Part shown: piece after piece, positions 10,775-12,691 of the stretch | Layout: each line of letters opens with the position of its first letter | How positions within the stretch are numbered: the first letter of the stretch is position 1 | DNA from: Cloacibacterium rupense | Lineage (GTDB): Bacteria; Bacteroidota; Bacteroidia; Flavobacteriales; Weeksellaceae | DNA: 64,000 bases | Direction of reading: 5' to 3' | Assembly: GCF_014645495.1 (NCBI RefSeq) | Contig: NZ_BMLV01000001.1 | Span: 417,996-481,995, forward strand | The notes under the pieces: generated by a model | The model's database searches: none | Told to the model about the DNA's origin: nothing | Seen by the model: only the letters and a program-made list of their open reading frames with translations | Translations under genes and position numbers: made by a program

Positions 10775-11149
10775 ATGGTAAAAAGATTAGAAGTAACAGA
10801 AAAAGCTTTAGAAGTCATTAAAACCTTGAAAGAAAAACATGGCGATTTAATGTTTTACCAAGCTGGTGGTTGCTGCGAAGGAACTCAACCGCAATGTTTC
10901 GAAAAAGGCGGATTTTACCTTAGAACCAATGATGTAATGATAGGTTTAATAGACGGTTTTGAATTTTGGGTAGATAGAGATTTATTTGAATATTGGAAAT
11001 TTTCGCATTTCACATTAGATGTAACTGATGGTTTTGGACCAGGTGGTTTTTCTCTAGAAACACCACTTGGAAAAACCTTTAAAATTGATTATAGACTTTT
11101 TACAGAAGATGAATTAAAAGATTTAGAACCTATAAAAAGAATGGAATAA
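10775..11149 (+). CDS. DUF779 family protein
   Basis: Small protein of 124 residues with the DUF779 pattern: FYQAGGCCEGTQPQCF (residues about 26-41), a conserved cysteine cluster, and GFGPGGFSLET near the end. Its function is unknown to me. DUF779 genes are commonly found beside aldehyde dehydrogenases of the ExaC/AldB type, as here, which suggests a role in the same aldehyde stress or alcohol catabolism. The cysteine cluster could bind a metal or react with aldehydes, but that is inference. Confidence 0.85.
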   Translation: MVKRLEVTEKALEVIKTLKEKHGDLMFYQAGGCCEGTQPQCFEKGGFYLRTNDVMIGLIDGFEFWVDRDLFEYWKFSHFTLDVTDGFGPGGFSLETPLGKTFKIDYRLFTEDELKDLEPIKRME

Positions 11150-11157
11150 TATTATTG

Positions 11158-11187
11158 AAACGTTTCAAATATTTGAAGCGTTTTTTG
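11158..11187 (+). terminator. Intrinsic terminator after DUF779
   Basis: Twelve-base-pair hairpin (AAACGTTTCAAA / TTTGAAGCGTTT, one G-T wobble) followed by T6. Confidence 0.85.
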
Positions 11188-11405
11188 TTTTTAGTGAAAT
11201 ATCATCAAAAATATTTCAATGCATTTTTCTGGATTTTTATTGAATTCTATTATTAACCTTACATTAACAGATTGTTAGTAATTTTAAAAATACATTAATA
11301 ATAAAGGAAAAATTCACATTATTTTTTGTGAATAACTATTTGAAAACGAGTGTAGAAAAACAATCTCATTTAGTTGCAAAATTCATTTTTATCATATTAT
11401 CTTTA
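11188..11405 (+). promoter_or_regulatory. Promoter region of the tandem-hairpin RNA
   Basis: No gene. Bases 11374-11376 (TTG) and 11398-11405 (TATCTTTA, one mismatch to TAnnTTTG) are separated by 21 bases, within the 17-23 range of flavobacterial promoters, and predict a start near 11,412. About 65 bp upstream is a perfect inverted repeat, ATTCACA-N8-TGTGAAT (11312-11333), which could be an operator. The rest of the stretch is featureless AT-rich DNA. Confidence 0.45.
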
Positions 11406-11584
11406 CATCAACAAACAAGTCAAGCTTTAAAGTTAAAATTGAAAGTTTTTTGTTGATAAACTAAAATTTGTAATTTTAATAATTTGTAAATCAATTAGTT
11501 GTAATTTATTTTATGTTTCGAAGTAGATGCGTAATTGCTAAGCCGAAATAAAGATTAAATAACTATTTTTTCAACAATTAAAGA

Positions 11585-12396
11585 AGACTTAAAAACTGTC
11601 TAATACTTTGACCTCAAAGTTTTGAAAGAATTTAGTTTTTTCTAAAATTTGAATGAGAAGTTGAGACAAAAAAACGTCAGAAACTTAAATTTCAAAGTTT
11701 TGGAGATGAAAATTTTCAAAGTTTGATTAAGAGGAAGACACAAAAAACGTCAAACTTAGATTTAAAATTTATTATAATGAAAATTATTTTAGATTCTTTA
11801 CTAGGCGAGACAAAAAAAGTCAAACGTGGAAAGTTGACAATTTCGAAGATGTAAATCTGAGAATCAAAACTGAAAACAATGACAAAAAAAAACGTCAGAA
11901 ACTTTAAATTTAGACATTCTTGAAAATGAAAATTTTCAGAAACTAATAAAAAAGTTCAGACAAAAAAACTGTCAAATATTTGAGTTGATAAGTTTAAGAA
12001 ATTTAACTTTAAACTTAGGTGATGACAAAAAAAATGTCAGACTTAATACTTAGATTTTTTAATAGTGAAAATTATTCTAAATTCTTTTTAAGCGAGACAA
12101 AAAAATCGTCAAACGTGGAAAGTTGACAATTTCGAAGATGAAAATCCTAGAAACAAAACTGAAAGCAATGACAAAAACAGTCAAAAACTTGAAATTTAGT
12201 TTTTTGAAAATGAAAATTTTTAAGAGATTAATAAGAAAGTTCAGACAAAAAACTGTCAAACACTTGAGTTTATAAGTTTAAGAAATTAAACTTTAAACTT
12301 AGGTGATGACAAAAAAAATGTCAACCAAATTTTAGTTTTAATTAGATTGCAATAGCAATTAAAAGCAGACTAAAAGATGATGACAAAACATAAGTC
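11585..12396 (+). repeat. Tandem array of ~72-bp units with a 287-bp higher-order repeat
   Basis: A GAC-(A-rich)-GTC motif recurs with its GAC at 11585, 11665, 11737, 11809, 11881, 11959, 12024, 12096, 12170, 12244, 12308 and 12382, that is at steps of 80, 72, 72, 72, 78, 65, 72, 74, 74, 64 and 74. Units are related over their whole length, not only at the motif. Units 11737, 11809, 11881, 11959 and 12024 correspond in order to units 12024, 12096, 12170, 12244 and 12308, at an offset of 284-289 bp. So a block of four units was duplicated. A 33-base identity is found at 11819-11851 and 12108-12140. Confidence 0.9.
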
Positions 12397-12530
12397 TGCG
12401 CTCATTATGATGTATGCATTAAGTGAAACTTAGCAATCCTCTGAAGAATACCTAAAGGTAAAATTTCGGAAAATGCAATTGAAATAGTTTCTGAAAACTT
12501 AAGCTTAATCTGAGTAAAGGCAAATTTAGG

Positions 12531-12588
12531 CTGATGACAATTTCATCTGAACTTGAAAAAGTTAGGAAGATTAGTCATCAGTCTTTTT
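12531..12588 (+). terminator. Intrinsic terminator ending the tandem-hairpin RNA
   Basis: Outer stem CTGATGAC (12531-12538) pairs with GTCATCAG (12574-12581). Inside are ATCT/AGAT and AACTT-GAAA-AAGTT (12550-12563). T7 follows at 12582-12588 after a C. The direction is plus strand only; no gene lies upstream on this strand nearer than 1.4 kb, so it must end an RNA that starts in this gap. Confidence 0.85.
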
Positions 12589-12609
12589 TTATTTTCAGAA
12601 ATTTATTAT

Positions 12610-12624
12610 TTTTACACTGTAAAA
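12610..12624. promoter_or_regulatory. Inverted repeat in the leader of the small secreted protein gene
   Basis: TTTTAC-ACT-GTAAAA is a 6-bp inverted repeat with a 3-base centre, located 68 bp before the next ATG. It could be an operator for the 12692-15996 gene group. No protein can be assigned and no exact -7 box is seen nearby. Confidence 0.25.
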
Positions 12625-12691
12625 TCAATAACCACGAGGTCTTAGAAATCATCTTTTGATTGTTTTTGAGATTTTTTAAAAATAATTGAAG

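Follow-up and report, generated by a model that had tools for sequence, protein, structure and literature searches.

RNAs of the CsrB and RsmZ type carry many copies of a short stem-loop on one transcript, and the number of these stem-loops differs between species. A candidate RNA with the same layout lies in the 64,000-nucleotide stretch of the Cloacibacterium rupense genome that we analysed (hereafter the window). Its components are different: the loops of CsrB and RsmZ are GGA, whereas nine of the eleven hairpins found here carry GNRA loops (GAAA or GUAA) and are strung on oligo(A) linkers. The window has no Rfam match to either RNA, and CsrA (PF02599) was found in none of the seven Cloacibacterium genomes, although the control searches match in E. 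coli, B. subtilis and T. maritima. Given the absence of CsrA from the genus, the window RNA is not a CsrB. The CsrB-like sponge that was proposed in the initial annotation therefore holds as an architectural analogy, but not as a relationship.

Other described systems share only some of its traits. Like 6S RNA it would be encoded separately, under a promoter of its own, but 6S RNA is a long hairpin interrupted by a central bubble and the window RNA a chain of eleven hairpins. Rfam also contains an entry for 6S-Flavo. No 6S match (RF00013) was obtained in the window or its relatives, nor anywhere in the genus, so that no known 6S can serve as a cross-check. OLE, GOLLD, ROOL and HEARO are likewise long, structured and non-coding with their own transcription unit; these have a compact conserved core, whereas the window holds a repetitive linear hairpin array that matches none of their covariance models. 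Finally, Rfp18 and other flavobacterial sRNAs, together with FopS and GibS of Bacteroides, are trans-acting RNAs of Bacteroidota with promoters of their own, but they are short: independent transcripts of F. psychrophilum have a median of 176 bp (PMC9723704), against approximately 1.18 kb for the window RNA (Rfp18 is set apart here by its description and not by its sequence). FopS binds the RRM-1 protein RbpB (PMC11697453). The window RNA differs from FopS and GibS in length; its 5' end is conserved, and is unpaired in one predicted fold and paired in another.

The candidate gene occupies a gap (11,150-12,690 of the window) in which an ORF check found no coding frame of note. On the upstream side the gap is bordered by a DUF779 gene (10775-11149), which has its own terminator-like hairpin at 11157-11184. 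A small ORF for a predicted secreted protein is located downstream (12686/12692-12979); it has no Pfam match and is not seen at the matching place in two congeners (G003 and G005). All elements of the RNA lie on the forward strand. With the Bacteroidota promoter consensus a probable -33 element TTG is recognized at 11374..11376 (most relatives have TTTGC at the matching place), followed by a probable -7 element TATCTTTA (11398..11405) that is kept with small changes in 15 relatives. A pattern search supports the conserved RNA 5' end CATCAACAAACAAGTCAAG (11406..11424). The 5' domain (11417..11590) is marked by the landmark GACUUAAAA, as placed by its position in relatives; it is possibly closed by pairing of AAGUC (11417-11421) with GACUU (11586-11590), in which case the first GAC (11586) may belong to this closing stem and not to the array. 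Behind the array follows a 3' domain (12385..12529), which is kept in one close relative (G004) and has no sequence in common with other genera. The terminator (12531..12590) consists of CTGATGAC (12531-12538) pairing with GTCATCAG (12574-12581) and a subsequent T-run, and its stem is kept in 15 relatives. The 5' end and the terminator are the most conserved parts of the RNA. Their recurrence in relatives, at several loci, gives good support to the promoter-like and terminator sequences that had been suggested as bounds.

Between these domains we find eleven GAC-(A-rich)-GTC motifs (11586...12308) with spacings of 79, 72, 72, 72, 78, 65, 72, 74, 74 and 64 nt; dinucleotide shuffles of the region contain 0.05 such motifs on average and one at most. 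The initial annotation had counted twelve with a period near 72, the last of which (at 12382) is present only in a looser form. As it had also proposed, the GTC of one motif can pair with the GAC of the next, and each of the eleven intervals is predicted to fold into a hairpin closed in this way. In units 1 and 2, however, GAC/GTC pairing inside a single linker (P 0.44-0.51) is about equally likely as the hairpin closure (P 0.40-0.48). Each unit is predicted to have an outer and an inner stem with an A-rich internal loop between them, nine of the eleven end in a GNRA loop, and A-rich linkers separate the hairpins. The GNRA loops are found where they had been listed, in units 2-10.

According to the predicted fold, unit 1 extends over 11598..11667 and unit 4, with a GUAA loop, over 11819..11883. 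Units 2 (11676..11739), 3 (11749..11811), 5 (11894..11961) and 6 (11971..12026) all have a GAAA loop and are based on the predicted fold together with unit comparison. Self-comparison shows that a four-unit block is present twice: units 7 (12036..12098), 8 (12108..12172), 9 (12180..12246) and 10 (12255..12310), each with a predicted GAAA loop, are copies of units 3, 4, 5 and 6, respectively. The eleven units are thus not independent repeats. Unit 11 (12320..12384) has an AAUA loop. Folds are very strong for units 10 (z -6.9, the strongest) and 11 (z -4.4), whereas units 4, 7 and 8 are individually weak (p 0.12-0.22). A possible hairpin GCAGACU...AGUCUGC (window 12369-12393) would compete with unit 11, and in G004 a C-G pair at this place is changed to U-A. 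For the array as a whole the fold z is -10.7 on the forward strand against -4.3 on the reverse, which favours the forward strand as the transcribed one. Taken together, the ORF check, the motif count relative to shuffles and the fold z bear out a structured hairpin chain at 11407-12588 in a coding-free gap. One alignment of all units together did not yield a consensus structure because the unit types differ. Searches for further array copies elsewhere in the genome returned chance matches only, and a phage or plasmid origin found no match.

Comparison of the seven Cloacibacterium genomes shows four congeners that have the promoter/5' end and the terminator at this same locus. G004 has the same RNA at 87% identity, minus one 287-nt block that corresponds to exactly four units, which leaves seven hairpins against eleven in the window. 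Three others (G003, G005 and G006) have a 460-nt form at the same place: promoter, 5' end and terminator stem are common, but the array is absent. The motif GAC-UUAAAAAUA-GUC is present once in these short forms; the hairpin following it is no more stable than shuffles and was rejected as a folded single unit. Chryseobacterium-like BLAST matches of the short form were judged to be chance. In the remaining two genomes (G001 and G002) the RNA is absent at the locus. As a side observation, the M48 peptidase gene of G003 (L011 5343-7390) is apparently split by a frameshift, possibly through an error of assembly. Indels in the linkers break the frame between the window and G004, which speaks against a conserved protein. 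Within the array paired sites have changed less often than unpaired sites (5.2% against 11.9%, p 0.01). The 5' and 3' domains do not show this contrast, so the structure predicted there is unreliable.

Of the 323 genomes of the family, 16 (from 5 of the 33 genera) have the RNA and one more has a remnant; the promoter/5' end and the terminator are seen, at several loci, in 15 genomes besides that of the window. A search with the 5'-end pattern (25 bases, at most 3 mismatches) retrieves seven family members, including G171 and G040 at other loci, and one mRNA leader (the match in G204, rejected as a member), while the reversed pattern gives none. Further members came from BLAST with the G040 RNA as query and from a terminator covariance model: G017, G041, G086, G175, G165, G177, G147, G104 and G031. 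In G066 (L093) the 3' terminator end alone is left, between presumed lpxK and dinB genes, as a decayed copy. Outside the family there was no match among 398 genomes of the order, which is a weak negative since the terminator model (R1) also misses the window's own, diverged copy. Lengths range from about 250 to 1,180 nt and the window copy is the longest; members in other genera measure approximately 540-600 nt, with one copy of 250 nt (G040), and often have predicted GNRA-capped hairpins with A-rich unpaired stretches. In all members 51-65% of the unpaired residues are A. Several copies adjoin genes that we take from their translations to be lpxK, punA or dinB and others lie elsewhere; the lack of a consistent neighbour gene points to action in trans. 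Fifteen members were checked for the landmark GACUUAAAA (or GACUAAAA), and 13 have it at a distance of 183-199 nt from where the aligned stretch begins. The window accords with this build: a -7 box, the 5' end CATCAACAANCAAGUC, GACUUAAAA about 190 nt further on and a CTGATGA..TCATCAG terminator. Its array starts right after the GACUU-AAAA landmark, about 190 nt into the RNA, and relatives carry this landmark once. The G165 version of the landmark, GACUAAAAAAGUC-GAAACUU, is built like the repeated linker GACAAAAAAACGUC-AGAAACUU of the window.

Rfam 15 yields no match for the window or its relatives, and a search by E-value gives sub-threshold chance matches only. A limited literature search found no description of the RNA either, in agreement with the remark in the initial annotation that no named family has such a build. 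Judged from sequence comparison, this is a so far undescribed RNA family in Weeksellaceae, whose 5' end and terminator are fixed and whose body consists of predicted GNRA-capped hairpins connected through A-rich single strands. Preservation of stems by paired changes, which had been set as a test of the hairpins, has an outcome between mixed and favourable. It is clear at the level of this wider family: in four close members plus G171, 11 pairs have changes in both partners, compared with 4.9 +/- 1.5 after shuffling, and none of 500 shuffles reaches this number. Between units the signal is moderate. Four pairs have changed on both sides among units 2, 5 and 9; 76 of 500 shuffles reach this pair count, whereas the cell count is reached by 8 of 500 and the covariation score by 5 of 500. 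These changes are suggestive support for the stems, but not decisive. Between the window and G004 the signal is weak, since five of the 13 changed pairs are broken.

Most members have DnaA-box-like sites at recurring distances upstream. In the window the site TTATTCACA (11327..11335, reverse strand) begins 78 nt ahead of the 5' end of the RNA. Sites of the form TTATNCACA (DnaA-box consensus) are also seen upstream of the RNA in L063, L065, L072, L089, L067 and L004-L007, at -131/-92 in other genera and at -129/-77 and -78 in Cloacibacterium. In total 16 are present in 16 x 350 nt against 0.17 expected from sampled genome DNA (the count includes close relatives; one per lineage leaves 10). This is a hint that DnaA, or a different factor recognizing the same site, may control the RNA. 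The sites also raised the idea that the locus is an oriC, which we rejected: by sampled GC skew the G003 locus lies at a + to - switch (terminus side) and the G171 locus shows no origin signal. On G003 C1 near 1.076 Mb (L117, L118) the sampled skew changes from + to - at the RNA locus, near the replication terminus.

With high confidence we regard the region as a gene for an independently transcribed structured RNA. It is extremely unlikely that it is instead AT-rich repeat DNA that is not transcribed, or the remains of a coding region; the region is indeed very AT-rich, but promoter and terminator are conserved at several loci, fold stability is strand-specific, relatives show covariation and the linker indels break the frame. 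As to its role, the array may tentatively be read as a multivalent protein-binding platform (sponge or scaffold), at somewhat less than an even chance. This proposal of the initial annotation is still our best guess and is helped by the difference of eleven against seven units and the module amplification. The sequences themselves display a predicted structure, conservation, a duplicated block, a difference in copy number and a promoter and terminator that are kept in relatives; a single-module origin of the units, transcription, protein binding and titration are what we infer. An independently transcribed, trans-acting RNA of approximately 1.18 kb would have arisen by tandem duplication of a module after the GACUU-AAAA landmark, all units deriving from one ancestral module, to give eleven hairpins (seven in the sister genome). 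Each hairpin (with GNRA loop and A-rich internal loops) or each oligo(A) linker would bind one protein copy, and the RNA would titrate or cluster the bound protein with a capacity set by the unit number. One RRM-domain protein is present in every genome of the genus, and a partner of this class is conceivable; in Bacteroides the RRM-1 protein RbpB binds RNA globally, with a preference for single-stranded regions of noncoding RNAs (PMC11697453). Nonetheless, hairpin sequences differ much between unit types, so a single protein would have to read shape, GNRA loop or A-rich linkers. Moreover, three congeners manage with the 460-nt form (at most one such unit) and two without the RNA at the locus.

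The locus would look very similar if a functional RNA had expanded neutrally in a part that tolerates this. A mostly neutral array of this kind, with the function residing in the 5' and 3' parts, is in our view unlikely, yet it would account for the strongest conservation at the 5' end and terminator, the length range from approximately 250 nt (G040) to 1,180 nt, the arrayless short forms, the weak folds of units 4, 7 and 8 and the broken pairs relative to G004. It accords less well with the halved rate of change at paired sites, a contrast confined to the array, with the paired changes between units and with the fact that units remain predicted GNRA-loop hairpins after duplication. It is less probable still that the conserved 5' end AUCAACAANCAAGUCA is an mRNA-pairing seed and that, as in other sRNAs of Bacteroidota, the hairpins mainly stabilize the molecule. 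In favour of a seed, this end hardly varies between genera, its first 13 bases stay single-stranded when the window RNA is folded globally, and the FopS sRNAs of Bacteroides likewise contain a single-stranded stretch at the 5' end that holds a likely seed (PMC11697453). The end is paired in a span-limited fold, however, and its AAGUC part may pair with GACUU; in addition, the stretch overlaps the presumed transcription start, where promoter or initiation constraints could explain its conservation, and a seed leaves the array unexplained. It is very unlikely that the RNA forms a large structural RNP or assembles by itself in the manner of OLE, ROOL or GOLLD, with the repeat as scaffold: size and independent transcription unit would fit, but a linear AU-rich hairpin string has no long-range conserved core and does not match those Rfam families.

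Little is known of post-transcriptional control in Bacteroidota, and Cloacibacterium yielded no CsrA. If the array is indeed a multivalent platform, it could represent a new type of regulatory RNA that changes its capacity in evolution by gaining and losing whole hairpin modules, titrates an RRM-type or other RNA-binding protein in bacteria that lack CsrA and has its synthesis tied to DnaA or the replication state by way of the DnaA-box-like sites ahead of the promoter; we consider this full scenario a long shot. A large family of RNAs with a modular hairpin body, in which the unit number differs by exactly four between two close species, offers a direct test of selection on the number of sponge sites, and the RNA may itself serve as bait for its protein partner.
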